This document shows, piece after piece, positions 5,597 to 20,370 of a stretch of 28,570 bases of DNA. Source of the stretch: a virus. The stretch's first letter is position 1. Every line of letters starts with the position of its first letter. The stretch covers positions 1-28,570 of IMG/VR virus record IMGVR_UViG_3300028025_004553, one strand, 5' to 3'. The position numbers were made by a program, and so were the translations under genes. Under the pieces are notes generated by a model. The model was not told the DNA's origin. It was given only the letters and a program-made list of their open reading frames with translations, and ran no database searches.

Positions 5597-6922
5597 ATGG
5601 CCTTTTCTGTAGCACTACTGGGTGCTAGTTCACCGGCAATCTCTAACTACTGGGTATCAGCCTTTGGGGAGGCTGCGAATACTTACGAGGGAATTCAGGG
5701 CATAGCAATTGACTCTAGCGGTAACGGCTACGTCTGCGGGTATGGAAATGGCCCCGGAAATATTAGCGCTGCGTTTTTAGGCAAGCTGGACCGATATGGA
5801 CGTAAGGTTTGGCAAAAATGGTATCAAGTTTCAGGTAAAGAAACTTACTTCCAATCAATGCAGTGTAGTGGGACAGAGTTGTATTTAGTAGGCGCTGTCT
5901 ACACTAGCGGAGTTGCTAAACGACTACACATGAAGCTGGACCTAAATGGTGCAATTCAGTGGCAGCGCCTAGTGGGCGATGGGGTAACCAGTAATACTCA
6001 TTTTCACCAAAAGTCCCTAGCATTGGATCCTTTCGGAAACACAGTCTCAGTAGCAGGATTTGGAAGCGCGCCTAGCAAGTACTACATGACAACCCGTTTT
6101 AATACTTTAGGTGACAACTTCAATACGTATTACAGATTGACGCACGGCAGCAACGGATACTTTGACAACATAAAAATTGACGGATCTACACAAAACAATT
6201 ACCTGTATGGTGATTTTGCCTCAACCGGCTCATTTCCAGAAGCCTACGGTCTAGTTACAAAAATGAGTGAAACCGGGTCTCACTTGTGGAGCACCTACTT
6301 TAACAATGACTCTAACCGATACAGCAGCATACTTTCTATGTCGGCAGACACTACTTATGCTTACGCAGCCGGATACCAAAGCACGGATTCTGGAGTAACT
6401 CCCTATACGGTAACGGCGTTTATCACTAAACTGAATGGATCTAACGGTTCGGTAGTTTGGTCTAGGGCGCTGGATAATGCACTTTGGAGGTCTGTAGTTC
6501 ACTCCGCCAGCACAGGAAATATATACGCAATAGGAAGCACGTATCCAGACTATAAGCTTATAGTAGCTAAGTATGACTCAAGTGGAACCCTGCAATGGCA
6601 GCGAACCATGACAGGCGTGGCGTCAGGGTACGGTATGGAAATTAGGCTAGATTCTAGCGAGAATCTATATCTCCCCCTAAGCTCAGTAACGATTAATGGG
6701 ACATCGGGCGACTGCGTAGGAATGATAAAAATTCCAGGAGATGGGTCTCTAACCGGAACATACGGCGACATCGTTTACGCAACATCTTCGTTATCTGCAG
6801 TTACGCCAGCCAACTGGGCTTCAACGAGCTCTTCAATTACAACCATGTCTTCTAGCTCAGCTACAGGAGATGCCGCAGCAACTACATCAACTCTTACAGA
6901 GTACAAGAGAAATATAGGATAG
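5597..6922 (+). CDS. Beta-propeller (SBBP-like repeat) fibre-tip protein
   Basis: This 441-residue protein contains repeated units of the type IAIDSSGNGYVCGYG ... LDRYGRKVWQKWY, with later copies such as VAKYDSSGTLQWQR and IRLDSSENLYLPL. Such repeats (SBBP family) build beta-propellers and are frequent in environmental phage adhesins. The N terminus MAFSVALLGASSPAISNYW is a short non-repeat anchor; the last 40 residues are Ser/Thr-rich and low complexity. The start is one base after the stop of the collagen-like shaft gene, so co-translation and physical partnership are likely. No catalytic residues are recognisable. I infer receptor or glycan binding. Confidence 0.75.
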   Translation: MAFSVALLGASSPAISNYWVSAFGEAANTYEGIQGIAIDSSGNGYVCGYGNGPGNISAAFLGKLDRYGRKVWQKWYQVSGKETYFQSMQCSGTELYLVGAVYTSGVAKRLHMKLDLNGAIQWQRLVGDGVTSNTHFHQKSLALDPFGNTVSVAGFGSAPSKYYMTTRFNTLGDNFNTYYRLTHGSNGYFDNIKIDGSTQNNYLYGDFASTGSFPEAYGLVTKMSETGSHLWSTYFNNDSNRYSSILSMSADTTYAYAAGYQSTDSGVTPYTVTAFITKLNGSNGSVVWSRALDNALWRSVVHSASTGNIYAIGSTYPDYKLIVAKYDSSGTLQWQRTMTGVASGYGMEIRLDSSENLYLPLSSVTINGTSGDCVGMIKIPGDGSLTGTYGDIVYATSSLSAVTPANWASTSSSITTMSSSSATGDAAATTSTLTEYKRNIG

Positions 6923-7360: not shown

Positions 7361-12942
<5,582 letters not shown>

Positions 12943-16174: not shown

Positions 16175-16453
16175 GTGAACCTCAACGACAAGCTGAAGGT
16201 TGCAGCTGAAGAAGCCGCTACCAAGCTCTGTAAATTGGCAACGTTGCTAAATGGTCCAGAGTTATCTGAAGACGAGAAGAAAAATTTAATTATCCTTCTT
16301 GAAGTCGATGAGCGTAATCCCGCTCGAGTTCCTAGTTCAACCATCGGGCAGATTCTAAGAGAAGAAGGCTATGATCTCAGCGATAGTGCTGTAGACCGTC
16401 ACCGCCGAGTTCCAAAGACATGCGCCTGCAAAAGAACAGTAGGTAGTAAATAA
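16175..16453 (+). CDS. Small putative helix-turn-helix DNA-binding protein
   Basis: A 92-residue protein. GTG 16175 is the start because the nearby ATG at 16173 is followed at once by a stop, and AGGAG lies at 16166-16170. The N-terminal half is helical and charged. The C-terminal half reads VPSSTIGQILREEGYDLSDS then AVDRHRRVPKTCACKR: a helix-turn-helix-like pattern ending in a basic patch with a C-x-C. Similar SxxxVxRHRR endings are seen in small actinophage DNA-binding proteins. Its stop overlaps the start of the phosphoesterase gene (TAATG), so the two may act together on DNA. I cannot name a target site; identity is tentative. Confidence 0.55.
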   Translation: MNLNDKLKVAAEEAATKLCKLATLLNGPELSEDEKKNLIILLEVDERNPARVPSSTIGQILREEGYDLSDSAVDRHRRVPKTCACKRTVGSK

Positions 16454-17652
16454 TGGGACTAGCGGATCGTCTAGAGGCACTGGCTTCTCCAGGTAAAAAT
16501 GGATCTGACTTTAAAGTTTTAAACACACCAGAGAACTGGCGTCCAAAGGTGGACGTAGATAGTGTCAATGGTGGTTACGTAGTTTCGCACCCATCTGAAG
16601 TCGGTGGACTCCCAGATGCAGACGCAATCCTAGAGCAGTTTGAAATGAATCCCGCTGACTGGACCGTGACCTCGGTTCGTCGCGGTAAGTGGCAGAAGTT
16701 TGACGGTGAGTTCCTAGAATCACTTCGCGTAAATATTGTTCCCGCTGCTGTAAATCGTATGGAGCAGCTTGATGCAGAAAAACTTGTAGACGAAATTAAG
16801 AAGTGGCGTCCAGCCGCTAATGCAAAGCAGGGTATCGGCGAAGGGTCTTTTGCACTTTTCCCAGCTGACCAGCAGATTGGTAAAAAAGCTGGCGGTGGTG
16901 GTACTCAGCAGTCAATCGATCGAATTCTTGCACTGACCGAATCAGCAGTACACAGATATAAGGGCTACCAGAAAATGGGAATGGGCCTTGGCACAATTAC
17001 ACTTGGCCTTCCAGGCGATCACGTTGAAGGTAACGTATCTCAGGGTGGTCGTCTTCAGGGACTCGCGGCATCTGATCTTGGTATAACCGAGCAGGTACGT
17101 GTTGCACGTCGTTTGCTTATGGCGCAGATTAAAGCGTTGGCTCCTCTTGCTCAGAACATGATTGTTCCAGTTATCAACGGAAACCACGATGAAGCTGGTC
17201 GCTATGTTGCAACAGATCCAGCTGACGGTTGGAACGTTGAGATTGCATCATCAGTACAGGACGCTTGCGCAGAGAATCCTGCGCTACAGCACATTGAATT
17301 CCGTTATCCATCTTCGGGACACCAGACTCTTGTAACAGAGATTTGTGGGACGCACTTAGGCATGTTCCACGGACACCAGGCAAATCAGAACAGCATCGAA
17401 AAGTATCTAGCAGGTCAGACTCTCGGTCAGACTGCGCTAGGTGGTGCAGACATCTGGGTGTCAGGACACTTCCACAACTTCCGCACAATGGACATTGGTG
17501 AACGCCTATGGTGCCAGTGCCCGACAACCGACCCGGGGTCAGACTGGTTCCGTGACCGTGCTGGTGCTCAGTCGAAGGCTGGACTACTTACTATGGTATT
17601 TGGTGGCAGCTTTGATCCACGCGAGAACCTAAGCGTGTTGTCGATAAAGTGA
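16453..17652 (+). CDS. Metallophosphoesterase (calcineurin-like), DNA-associated
   Basis: A 399-residue protein with the full set of metallophosphoesterase motifs: D139-Q-Q-I-G-K (usually D-x-H; here Gln replaces His), G188-D-H-V-E-G-N, G243-N-H-D-E, H306-G-H, and G338-H-F-H. This family uses two metal ions to cleave phosphoesters; phage members of this size are often grouped near SbcD/Mre11-type nucleases. The first 130 residues are not recognisable as a known domain. The Gln in motif I is typical for a phage subgroup with D-x-Q-I-G-K, so the enzyme is probably active. It is translationally coupled to the small HTH-like protein upstream and to the sulfotransferase downstream (GTGA). The substrate is not visible; DNA, RNA or a nucleotide is likely. 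Confidence 0.8.
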   Translation: MGLADRLEALASPGKNGSDFKVLNTPENWRPKVDVDSVNGGYVVSHPSEVGGLPDADAILEQFEMNPADWTVTSVRRGKWQKFDGEFLESLRVNIVPAAVNRMEQLDAEKLVDEIKKWRPAANAKQGIGEGSFALFPADQQIGKKAGGGGTQQSIDRILALTESAVHRYKGYQKMGMGLGTITLGLPGDHVEGNVSQGGRLQGLAASDLGITEQVRVARRLLMAQIKALAPLAQNMIVPVINGNHDEAGRYVATDPADGWNVEIASSVQDACAENPALQHIEFRYPSSGHQTLVTEICGTHLGMFHGHQANQNSIEKYLAGQTLGQTALGGADIWVSGHFHNFRTMDIGERLWCQCPTTDPGSDWFRDRAGAQSKAGLLTMVFGGSFDPRENLSVLSIK

Positions 17653-18347
17653 ACAAGGAACAAAGAGACCTTCGGGACGCTTTAGATTTATCTCTATTTA
17701 ACACCACCTTCTTCGTGGGTGCCCCGCCAAGAAGTGGCAACACTTATCTCAGATATGTATTAAAAGATGCATACAGCAATCCAATTAAAGACTCTGGCAG
17801 CTTAATTAAAAACAACCACTCTAGTTCGTATGCTCTTAATCAAGCTTTAAGCACCGAGAGTGTTGCCCCTATTTTTATTTGCCCCATCAGAGACCCATAT
17901 GACACTTTAAAGTCTAAATTAGTCAGAACATTCTTTGAGTGGGATACTGCGCCTAACGTCATCGAACACGCACCTTCGGTTGATGACCTGTGTCTTTACT
18001 GGGAGATATTGCTTATAGACCCGTCTAAATTCTGTTTAGTAGATTTCAAAGAGTTAGTTGTCGATAAAGATAAGGTCGTCTCCAAGATCGACGAGAGATA
18101 TCCAGAAATTAAGATTTATAAAAACCCTACCCCGGCTACAAACGAGCAATTGCTGGCAGAGATGAGCAAAGAGGACGGGGACAAATATGGCGACAATATT
18201 AAGTTGTACCTGTCGTCTGCTCACATTCCTAGAAGTAAGTCAGAATACTCGGATGCCGCTGAGGAGCTACTATCTAGCCCGGCATACGCTAGGCGACTAG
18301 ACTATCTATACGTTATGTACAAAGAGCTACTAGATCTAACAATATAA
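17649..18347 (+). CDS. PAPS-dependent sulfotransferase
   Basis: A 232-residue protein that starts at GTG 17649, overlapping the previous stop (GTGA). It carries both PAPS-binding signatures of the sulfotransferase family: the 5'-phosphosulfate loop A25-P-P-R-S-G-N-T-Y-L34 and the 3'-phosphate motif I80-R-D-P-Y-D-x-x-x-S89, with the R81/S89 spacing seen in known enzymes. Family members move a sulfo group from PAPS to a hydroxyl or amine on a glycan, lipid, protein or small molecule. Length is at the short end of the family. There is no signal peptide, so it acts in the cytoplasm. The next gene encodes an APS kinase, which would supply its donor. The acceptor is unknown; a glycan is favoured by the glycosyltransferase in the same operon. 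Confidence 0.8.
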   Translation: MNKEQRDLRDALDLSLFNTTFFVGAPPRSGNTYLRYVLKDAYSNPIKDSGSLIKNNHSSSYALNQALSTESVAPIFICPIRDPYDTLKSKLVRTFFEWDTAPNVIEHAPSVDDLCLYWEILLIDPSKFCLVDFKELVVDKDKVVSKIDERYPEIKIYKNPTPATNEQLLAEMSKEDGDKYGDNIKLYLSSAHIPRSKSEYSDAAEELLSSPAYARRLDYLYVMYKELLDLTI

Positions 18348-18354
18348 GGACTAC

Positions 18355-19104
18355 ATGATAATTTTATTTTTTGGCCTCCCCGGCTCTGGTAAGACCACTC
18401 TAGCCAAAGAGATCTTGAAGCACACCCCTGCTATCCACTTAAACGCGGATGATGTGAGGGCCGACCTGAGTATTGATCTAGGCTTCTCTCCAGAAGACAG
18501 AATTGAGCAGGCAAGAAGAATGGGTGCAATGGCGCGCCTGCTCTCGGCGCAGGGGCACGTGGTATTGGTTGATTTTGTGAATCCAACCGAGGCAACCCGT
18601 AAAGCTTTTGGTAAAGCAGACTTCACTGTCTGGGTTAATCGAATCAACTACAGTCGCTTCGAGGACACTAACTTCTTGTGGGAGACTCCAGAAAAATTTG
18701 ACATACAAATAGTTAGCGGTATGGAGTTAGCTACAGAAGTTACTGTAGTTATGGCAGCTACTGGTCTATACGACTGGAAGAAGCCAACAACTTTAATGCT
18801 TGGTCGCTATCAGCCTTGGCACGAAGGTCACGACGCTTTGTACGATGTTGGTCTAGATAAGACGGGGCAGGTACTAGTAGCTGTGCGCGACACCCAAGGG
18901 ACCTCGGAAAAAGACCCCCTAAGCCACGACCAGGTTACGCACTACATAGAGAAGTATCGCCCCAACGCACTTGTGATGCGAGTACCTAACATAACCAACA
19001 TCATCTACGGACGTGATGTCGGCTATAAAATTGAAAAGATCGAGCTTAGCTCCGATCTTCAAGAGATATCTGCAACTAAAAAGCGTCAGGAACTTGGGCT
19101 ATGA
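18355..19104 (+). CDS. APS kinase fused to HxGH nucleotidyltransferase
   Basis: A 249-residue protein after an AAGGA site. Residues 1-135 match adenylylsulfate kinase: Walker A G7-LPGSGKTT15, the LNADDVRADL substrate segment (29-38), and DLGFSPEDRIEQARR (41-55), a hallmark of the family. It would phosphorylate APS to PAPS. Residues about 142-249 form a second nucleotidyltransferase fold: GRYQPWHEGH (150-159, the HxGH motif), Y-G-R-D-V-G-Y (218-224) and ISATKKR (238-244). The order, kinase then adenylyltransferase, parallels animal PAPS synthetases, but this domain is far smaller than ATP sulfurylase and its GRxQPxHxGH motif looks more like NMN adenylyltransferases. So APS kinase is well supported; the second activity is open. 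It overlaps DUF2061 downstream (ATGA). Confidence 0.82.
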   Translation: MIILFFGLPGSGKTTLAKEILKHTPAIHLNADDVRADLSIDLGFSPEDRIEQARRMGAMARLLSAQGHVVLVDFVNPTEATRKAFGKADFTVWVNRINYSRFEDTNFLWETPEKFDIQIVSGMELATEVTVVMAATGLYDWKKPTTLMLGRYQPWHEGHDALYDVGLDKTGQVLVAVRDTQGTSEKDPLSHDQVTHYIEKYRPNALVMRVPNITNIIYGRDVGYKIEKIELSSDLQEISATKKRQELGL

Positions 19105-19307
19105 AAGTAACCAGATCTAGATCTTTTGTAAAAGCTCTGAGCTACAGAATTTGGGGGACCTTGTCTTCGTTCGTTGTAGCTTTTGTTATAACGGGCAGTG
19201 CGGAGCTGTCCGGTCTAATTGCATTTTGGGAGACAGTGGTGAAGGTAGGAATCTACTACGTGCATGAACGTGGATGGAATTTTGTTCAGTGGGGTAGACG
19301 TGGCTAA
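19101..19307 (+). CDS. DUF2061 small membrane protein
   Basis: A 68-residue protein. It has the DUF2061 pattern: basic start with S-x-x-K-A-x-x-Y-R, a hydrophobic span (about 14-31), a second span (about 34-51) beginning G-L-I-A-F-W-E, and a conserved K-x-x-x-Y-Y-x-H-E-R-x-W near the end. The family's function is unknown; I recall it beside sulfate-activation genes in some bacteria and phages, but did not verify this. Its start overlaps the stop of the APS kinase gene (ATGA) and its end overlaps the glycosyltransferase gene. It may be an inner-membrane partner of the sulfation or glycosylation step; that is inference from position only. Confidence 0.8.
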   Translation: MKVTRSRSFVKALSYRIWGTLSSFVVAFVITGSAELSGLIAFWETVVKVGIYYVHERGWNFVQWGRRG

Positions 19308-20370
19308 AGTTGCAGTCTATACAATAGCTTTAAACGAAGAAAAGCACGTCGAGCGTTGGTACAACTCTATTAAGGATGCAGACTACATCCTGATTGCAGA
19401 TACCGGATCTACAGATAAGACGGTAGAGATTGCTAAAGGGCTTGGCATCAATGTAGTCAATATACTTATCAAGCCTTTCCGGTTTGACACTAGTCGCAAC
19501 GCTGCGTTGGCAGCTCTGCCTGCAGATATTGATTACTGCATCTCGCTAGATATGGACGAGGTCCTTACTGAAGGGTGGCGTCAGGACATAGAGACGCTGC
19601 CTGTATTGGAGCAGAACCAGTCTGCAATTATGCGTAGTACGCTTACTTGGAACTTTAAAGAAGATGGCACTCCTGGCCTACAGTACGGGGCGGATAGGGT
19701 TCACTCACGTTGGGGCGTGCTGTGGCGTCAACCAGCTCACGAAATCATCAGCACCTACGGCGACTACGAAGAAAAGCGCGGCTGGGTAGGATTCGGTATT
19801 TACCACTTAGCAGACGCTACTAAGTCACGCGGTCAGTATATGGCCATGCTTAAGATGGCGACTCAGGAGAGCCCGTACAGTGATAGAAACGCCTTCTACT
19901 ACGCTAGAGAGCTATACTTCTATGGTTTGTACGCAGAGGCGGCTAAAGAGTTTAAGCGTCACCTAGAGCTACCTACGGCCGTATGGAAGCCAGAAAGAGC
20001 TGCTGCTTTAAGGTACTTGTCCATTTGTGAGCCAGAAAGCGCTGAGACGCATCTAGTTAAAGCGGTAGCAACTGACCCAAGTCGAAGAGAGCCTAAGGTA
20101 GCCCTTGCTCAAGAGTTCTATAAGAAGCAGGACTGGGCTAATTGCTATAAGTGGGCAACCAGTGCGCTGGAGATTGAGACAAAGCCTCTTGACTATATGT
20201 GCGAAGAGTTTGCTTGGGACCACACGCCGTGGGATCTGGCCGCGCTAGGTGCTTATAATTTAGGGAAATTTGAAGAGGCACTAAAGTACGGATCAAAGGC
20301 GGTAGAACTTACGCCTTCAGATCAGAGGTTAGTAGTTAACCTCGCTTATTACTCTTCTGCTCTTTCCTAG
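19300..20370 (+). CDS. GT2 family glycosyltransferase with TPR-like C terminus
   Basis: I choose GTG 19300 (356 residues, MAKVAVYTIALNEEK) because a GGGG site precedes it and it overlaps the upstream gene by only 8 bases; ATG 19264 is an in-frame alternative without a ribosome site. Residues 1-200 form a GT-A fold: V-Y-T-I-A-L-N-E-E at 6-14, A33-D-T-G-S-T-D39, and the metal-binding D84-M-D86. WRQPAHEII follows around residue 145. The C-terminal 150 residues are helical repeats with alternating Ala/Tyr/Leu patterns (EFYKKQDWANCYKWA, YNLGKFEEALKYG), like TPRs, which in related enzymes bind the acceptor protein. It would transfer a sugar from a nucleotide sugar. It is the last gene of the + operon and runs 35 bases into the convergent WhiB gene. 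Confidence 0.82.
   Translation: MAKVAVYTIALNEEKHVERWYNSIKDADYILIADTGSTDKTVEIAKGLGINVVNILIKPFRFDTSRNAALAALPADIDYCISLDMDEVLTEGWRQDIETLPVLEQNQSAIMRSTLTWNFKEDGTPGLQYGADRVHSRWGVLWRQPAHEIISTYGDYEEKRGWVGFGIYHLADATKSRGQYMAMLKMATQESPYSDRNAFYYARELYFYGLYAEAAKEFKRHLELPTAVWKPERAAALRYLSICEPESAETHLVKAVATDPSRREPKVALAQEFYKKQDWANCYKWATSALEIETKPLDYMCEEFAWDHTPWDLAALGAYNLGKFEEALKYGSKAVELTPSDQRLVVNLAYYSSALS

Follow-up and report, generated by a model that had tools for sequence, protein, structure and literature searches.

A phage sulfotransferase gene beside a kinase-nucleotidyltransferase fusion, a candidate bifunctional PAPS synthetase

A four-gene run in a virus fragment

We analyzed a 28,570-base virus fragment from IMG/VR (record IMGVR_UViG_3300028025_004553; its full length is referred to as the window), which carries genes for WhiB, a primase, a helicase, and collagen-like tail fibers and is most simply assigned to an actinophage. 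Four genes on its plus strand form a run at positions 17649-20370. The first (17649..18347, GTG start) encodes the 232-aa protein ST, assigned by predicted fold and motifs as a sulfotransferase using 3'-phosphoadenosine 5'-phosphosulfate (PAPS) as donor. The second (18355..19104) encodes the 249-aa protein KIN, in which a domain resembling kinases of adenosine 5'-phosphosulfate (APS) is fused to a nucleotidyltransferase (NT) domain and which is a candidate bifunctional PAPS synthetase. These are followed by genes for a 68-aa small membrane protein of the DUF2061 family (19101..19307; PF09834, 64.6 bits versus a cut-off of 23.1) and a family 2 glycosyltransferase (GT) with C-terminal TPR repeats (19264..20370; phrog_13126; PF00535, 32.1 bits versus a cut-off of 23.3), whose DxD motif is DMD in "SLDMDEV". 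A 7-nt gap containing AAGGA separates ST and KIN, and KIN and DUF2061 overlap by 4 nt (ATGA). Because GT homologues align from residue ~15, the true start of GT is probably the GTG at 19300, which lies 8 nt within the DUF2061 gene. The gene boundaries, the tight spacing, and the identities of the kinase fusion, DUF2061, and GT agree with a first-pass annotation of this DNA.

ST scored 20.2 bits against Sulfotransfer_3, under the Pfam cut-off of 27 bits. A single-sequence scan of IMG/VR and a phage collection returned zero relatives, querying the PDB with the ST sequence by itself yielded no match, and a scan with the ST copy of another phage (L004) returned near-identical contigs only. In a comparison of an ST profile with the PDB, SULT-type enzymes ranked at the top at a nonsignificant E value of 0.012. 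The AlphaFold2 model of ST (pLDDT 77) had sulfotransferases as all 50 of its top 50 VIA-align entries (Z 9.0-12.0, root mean square deviation [rmsd] 3.6-6.0) and a best Foldseek E value of 3e-3, which bears out the sulfotransferase fold expected from the first-pass annotation. The PAPS-binding residues singled out there are also present. P27-R28-S29-G30-N31 forms the 5'-phosphosulfate loop, and the conserved R81 and S89 form the 3'-phosphate site, with the Arg and Ser about eight residues apart as the family requires. In an alignment of six diverged relatives adjoining KIN in other phages, R28, S29, G30, H57, R81, and S89 were invariant; among eleven ST sequences, S29, G30, H57, and R81 remained invariant and R28 nearly so. 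H57, the putative catalytic base of the K-x-H region, was aligned to the SULT1A KSH by a profile match below threshold. The model and motifs support that ST is a diverged PAPS-dependent sulfotransferase.

Whole KIN matched phrog_10255 ("kinase"; 3e-55), and its AlphaFold2 model had a pLDDT of 92.5. Based on motifs and structure matches, residues 1-138 (18355..18768) were assigned as the APS-kinase domain, in which PF01583 scored 65.7 bits (cut-off 21.1), covering residues 2-85 only. The domain has the P-loop GLPGSGKT and the motifs D-L-G-F-x3-D-R-x-E-x2-R-R and F-x2-P-T-x2-T-R. In structure comparisons with VIA-align, for which the KIN rows span residues 1-139 only, the top 28 matches were APS kinases (Z 16.6-19.2, 24-32% identity), among them 5cb6 and 5cb8 (Z 19.2, rmsd 1.7, 31% identity, 138 residues), while gluconate kinase ranked below them (Z 16.4, 15% identity). 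Among 80 KIN relatives, the APS-site residues F44, D48, R49, E51, R54, and R55 were invariant; position 52, which is Asn in CysC, was Q in 64, N in 11, and H in 5. The C-terminal NT domain (18784..19101), for which Pfam gave a weak match (E 0.019), is considered below as a candidate minimal ATP sulfurylase.

Conserved neighbors of KIN in phages

At least 597 viral stretches in IMG/VR encode a KIN relative. We kept 80 KIN loci, which were dereplicated at 90% KIN identity to 36 independent clusters. A sulfotransferase gene was located within 1 kb of KIN in 23 of these 36 clusters, and in 13 of the 36 it was directly upstream on the same strand at a distance of ≤30 nt. The same sulfotransferase hidden Markov models (HMMs) detected none in 80 control loci around relatives of the GT, which were not dereplicated and had flanks of 6 kb compared with 8 kb for the KIN loci. 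With 23/36 clusters against 0/80 control loci, we rejected the possibility that these are chance neighbors; a rough Fisher test on 22/36 clusters versus the control gave a p of about 1e-14. The placement of a PAPS-dependent sulfotransferase beside an APS-kinase-type enzyme, which the first-pass annotation had noted and had expected to recur in relatives, is therefore a conserved pairing. The KIN-adjacent sulfotransferases fall into six sequence groups that BLAST clustering kept separate; relative to the Pfam sulfotransferase cut-offs, representatives of four groups were above or just below and those of two were weaker. Repeated recruitment of unrelated sulfotransferases beside KIN would be expected if they share a donor.

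DUF2061 is the neighbor that KIN keeps most constantly, ahead of either the sulfotransferase or the glycosyltransferase. It was found downstream of KIN in 31/36 clusters and, over the 80 loci, was almost always the first or second gene after KIN, while sulfotransferases were common upstream. Using single-sequence queries, we detected no CysH, sulfite reductase, or Sat near the 80 phage KIN loci; the phage context therefore fits sulfation rather than sulfate assimilation. We consider it likely that KIN serves sulfotransfer in the phage of the window.

Some KIN loci also contain oxygenase genes. In nine of them (L026-L029, L032, L036, L037, L058, and L081), genes for a Sulfotransfer_2 protein, an aspartyl/asparaginyl beta-hydroxylase, KIN, and DUF2061 lie in one run, and a tryptophan-halogenase-like gene mostly follows the hydroxylase-KIN-DUF2061 runs. 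In L003, a partial open reading frame upstream of KIN (3-956) has an N-terminal part that matches the C terminus of a 2-oxoglutarate (2OG)-Fe(II) oxygenase (L002 1844-2503), while the rest is Sulfotransfer_2. An apparent sulfotransferase in L002, detected with HMM ST70, was rejected, as it is the 2OG oxygenase that shares the N-terminal part of this fused L003 gene. Because a hydroxylase is coupled to KIN and an oxygenase is fused to a sulfotransferase in L003, these gene arrangements suggest hydroxylation followed by O-sulfation of a protein or small molecule as a further option.

KIN is also present in cultured Casjensviridae and DLP_6 (L082, L083, L084, L305, and L306: Clavibacter phage 33, DLP_6, Bhz60, and Suzuki), where it adjoins an unannotated or a NADAR gene; in Bhz60, it follows a gene annotated NADAR, with a MazG-like gene in the vicinity. 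No ST or DUF2061 was detected in these phages, which are possible experimental systems. KIN may be used without a phage sulfotransferase in such cases, for instance to supply host enzymes or a different step that depends on PAPS.

The NT domain in phages and bacteria

The NT domain of KIN has three motifs, G-R-Y-Q-P-W-H-E-G-H, P-N-I-T-N-I-I-Y-G-R-D-V-G-Y, and E-I-S-A-T-K-x-R. Among 34 NT sequences, G-R-x-Q-P-x-H-x-G-H, Y-G-R-x-V-G, and I-S-A-x-x-x-R were invariant or nearly so. KIN had zero matches to PF01747 and PF01507 at E≤1 and is not classed as Sat or CysDN. With the archaeal-type nicotinamide mononucleotide (NMN) adenylyltransferase (NMNAT) MJ0541 (PDB 1f9a), NT shares the ATP-binding half, which reads G-R-F-Q-P-F-H-x-G-H (E 8e-8), whereas the second half is replaced in NT by an invariant P-N-x4-Y-G-R-x-V-G-Y block. 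The NMNAT match is confined to profile residues 3-60 of 109, leaving the second half of NT unmatched, and NT scored below the NCBIfam cut-offs for NMN adenylyltransferases. In Sat (PF01747), by comparison, HUP-type motifs occur in the same order as in NT, including G-R-D. A Sat-like protein encoded in the bacterial genome G043 has Q-T-R-N-I-P-H-L-G-H, I-G-R-D-H-A-G, and E-I-S-G-T-K-I-R, an order paralleled by H-x-G-H, Y-G-R-D, and E-I-S-A-T-K-x-R of NT, with G-R-D central. In Sat, the arginine of G-R-D-H contacts sulfate. NT differs from Sat in giving no profile match, in being about a third the size, and in having an N-terminal half that is nearer to NMNAT. These short motif parallels suggest, without proving, that NT is a sulfurylase.

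NT was also found in cellular genomes, including 12/385 alphaproteobacterial genomes. In two OCS116 alphaproteobacteria (L086 and L087), NT precedes a full-length APS kinase in the same chain (PF01583 2-152/152, 216 bits), the reverse of the order in KIN; a third copy of this fusion, in a gammaproteobacterial metagenome-assembled genome, runs off the contig end. Neither OCS116 genome had a match to PF01747 or PF01507, and each has, 7-18 kb from the fusion on its contig, genes for two or three large Sulfotransfer_3 proteins. In two other alphaproteobacteria, Sulfotransfer_3 genes are 2.7 kb and 0.2 kb from KIN or kinN-NT genes (L207 3902-5002 and L208 8914-11016).

A second context is provided by a streamlined alphaproteobacterial family (six genomes of 0.6-1.1 Mb), in which 5/6 genomes have a stand-alone NT gene of ~118 aa. 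In all five NT-bearing genomes (L200, L201, L202, L300, and L301), NT is the last gene of the operon CobA - sulfite reductase - CysH - DUF2061 - kinN - NT, in which CobA is a CobA-type methylase at the upstream end and kinN encodes a short-lid kinase; in L200, this sulfate-assimilation operon spans 7992-12353. PF01747 was absent in 4/5 NT-bearing genomes of the family, and PF01507 matches above the cut-off in four of them (G174, G271, G349, and G043) were CysH only. Judged from gene content, NT and the short-lid kinase appear to stand where Sat or CysDN would be. Sulfate assimilation through such an operon requires that APS be formed, and since NT is the sole unassigned enzyme of the right chemistry in it, NT is likely the APS-forming one. 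Elsewhere, cellular NT copies had unrelated surroundings (L203-L206 and L298), and in Gammaproteobacteria NT was present in 3/369 genomes, without a further sulfate operon. In a genome of ~0.8 Mb, we also noted a Sat-like ATP sulfurylase gene (L221 1793-2857) by a pyruvate-kinase-like gene and a NeuB-like surface-glycan cluster, where it perhaps serves the bacterium's own glycan sulfation.

A candidate sulfation pathway and its alternatives

From the domain identities, gene order, co-occurrence, cellular fusions, and operon observed above, we infer the enzyme activities of a sulfation module, including APS synthesis by NT, as well as a role for DUF2061 and the presence of an acceptor. In this scheme, the NT domain (~110 residues and by profile unrelated to Sat or CysDN) would adenylylate sulfate with ATP to give APS, the N-terminal kinase domain of KIN would phosphorylate APS with ATP to give PAPS, and ST, translated just upstream of KIN, would transfer the sulfate from PAPS to an acceptor. 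DUF2061 would assist sulfate activation as a small membrane protein, with sulfate entry or membrane anchoring as possible roles. Since the NT half probably makes APS, the phage may make the donor starting from sulfate and ATP instead of drawing on host APS. KIN would in this respect be like the bifunctional PAPS synthetases (metazoan PAPSS; bacterial Sat-CysC and CysN-CysC), which combine a kinase with an APS-making domain in one chain and which the KIN kinase domain matched at Z 17-19. It differs from PAPSS in its length (249 aa versus about 600), in its shortened lid, and in its partner domain, a nucleotidyltransferase of ~110 aa without a PF01747 or CysDN match. We favor the full scheme, with NT as the APS-forming enzyme, with moderate confidence. 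We lean slightly further than even toward the broader proposal that NT is a third, unrecognized class of ATP sulfurylase (110-118 residues and derived from NMNAT), which would be fused to an APS kinase in widespread phages, as a miniature PAPS synthetase for sulfation, and stand alone in streamlined alphaproteobacteria for assimilatory sulfate reduction.

Several observations weigh against the sulfation scheme. The kinase lid has a shortened R-F-E-D-T-N in place of the K-G-L-Y-K-K-A-R of true CysC, and KIN misses the cut-off of the NCBI equivalog TIGR00455 (62.4 versus 138.7 bits); for these two reasons, we refer to KIN as APS-kinase-like and not as a canonical CysC. The N-terminal half of NT is nearest to NMN adenylyltransferases, and an hhalign comparison of NT with a single Sat template sequence recovered the E-I-S-x-T-K-x-R motif alone, so that the proposed sulfurylase activity leans on context and short motifs. 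Among the five NT-bearing genomes of the streamlined family, G043 is the exception to the absence of PF01747 and carries its Sat-like gene on another contig, within a surface-glycan cluster, and the absences of genes in bacteria are weak, as the genomes, whose completeness is not stated, may be incomplete. In phages, 13/36 KIN clusters had no sulfotransferase detected within 1 kb; L002, the closest among the matches listed (81% KIN identity), has KIN and GT without ST and DUF2061; and in two of the cultured phages, ST and DUF2061 were not detected in the 50 kb examined.

The resemblance of the N-terminal half of NT to NMN adenylyltransferases and its lack of significant similarity to Sat would also fit KIN acting as an APS kinase only, with a host ATP sulfurylase supplying APS, NT acting on another substrate, being regulatory, or being an NMNAT-like leftover, and PAPS still being made for ST. 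We consider this unlikely. The NT catalytic motifs are invariant in 34/34 sequences, hence no leftover; fusions of NT with APS kinase exist in both orders, and NT also occurs in the CysH operon; and its likeness to NMNAT ends after the ATP-binding half.

Another possibility concerns the acceptor. The first-pass annotation had proposed that the phage makes its own donor and sulfates a glycan built by the GT2 enzyme. The pairing of donor synthesis with a transferase is upheld by the KIN loci, while the involvement of GT is not. The ST-KIN-DUF2061-GT order is kept in three diverged lineages (the window, L004, and L013; KIN identity 62-64%), and GT occurs beside KIN in a small phage lineage only (the window, L002, L004/L089-L092, and L013; also L007). 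Against a glycan acceptor made by GT, KIN was missing within about 6 kb of 79/80 GT relatives, this GT is absent from most KIN-ST loci, GT adjoins KIN without ST and DUF2061 in L002, and in one cultured actinophage GT is beside a tryptophan halogenase and WhiB. The link between GT and KIN is thus weak and sulfation of a glycan is a guess; we regard it as quite improbable. GT probably serves surface modification, either independently or in an accessory role.

Phage genes of this type have been placed in sulfur metabolism before. In freshwater metagenomes, 62 phage cysC genes were read as sulfur-assimilation genes (PMC10914622), and the KIN gene could similarly be an auxiliary gene that boosts cysteine synthesis in the host; the same kinase and NT are indeed found in cells, in an operon alongside CysH and sulfite reductase. 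We find this reading of KIN very unlikely, given that single-sequence queries detected no cysH, cysI, or Sat in the 80 phage KIN loci and that sulfotransferases are adjacent to KIN in most independent clusters. By its gene content, the phage context of KIN would argue against the assimilation reading of phage cysC, insofar as the 62 genes of that study are KIN.

In the O-methyl phosphoramidate pathway of Campylobacter, a CysC-like kinase works with a cytidylyltransferase. We give hardly any credence to the idea that KIN, itself a CysC-like kinase with an altered lid joined to a nucleotidyltransferase and in cultured phages next to NADAR and DNA-methyltransferase genes instead of sulfur genes, makes a comparable 3'-phosphorylated nucleotide donor, since the transferases adjacent to KIN are PAPS sulfotransferases of several groups, the bacterial kinase/NT pair is beside CysH and sulfite reductase, and a canonical APS kinase occurs as the fusion partner of NT.

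Single phage sulfotransferases have been reported (PMC10580990 and PMC8290583), such as those of cyanophages S-SKS1 and S-SRM01, and their function was described as still unclear (PMC10580990). In the literature that we searched, mostly without subscription journals, the pairing of phage cysC with a sulfotransferase, the kinase-nucleotidyltransferase fusion, and the minimal sulfurylase candidate are undescribed; new here are also the NT-APS kinase fusions in OCS116 and NT in the sulfate operon of streamlined alphaproteobacteria. If the sulfation scheme is true, phage "cysC" genes mostly serve sulfation of an acceptor, not sulfur assimilation, and phage sulfotransferases acquire both a function and a donor that can be tested. 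An ATP sulfurylase this small would account for how sulfate is activated in genomes that have neither Sat nor CysDN yet retain CysH and sulfite reductase, and the prediction that plankton of this kind are unable to use sulfate would need correcting. The route from sulfate to sulfite was left unresolved in another streamlined lineage (PMC6794327), a gap of the kind that an NT-like enzyme could fill.

Other features of the window adjoin or surround the four-gene run. Directly 5' of ST on the plus strand is a gene for a calcineurin-like phosphoesterase/exonuclease (16453..17652; phrog_284), the stop of which is overlapped by 4 nt by the ST GTG start at 17649; it is a replication/repair-type gene, outside the proposed sulfation function. 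A WhiB gene on the opposite strand ends the run. The G+C content of ST (0.418) is lower than that of the window (0.48) and also below that of its neighbors, in keeping with recent acquisition. Elsewhere in the window, a 1152-aa protein with 21 DUF5122 beta-propeller stretches (9484-12942) and a second propeller-like protein (5597-6922) are encoded beside the collagen-like tail fibers. Both are possible adhesins and possible targets of sulfation.

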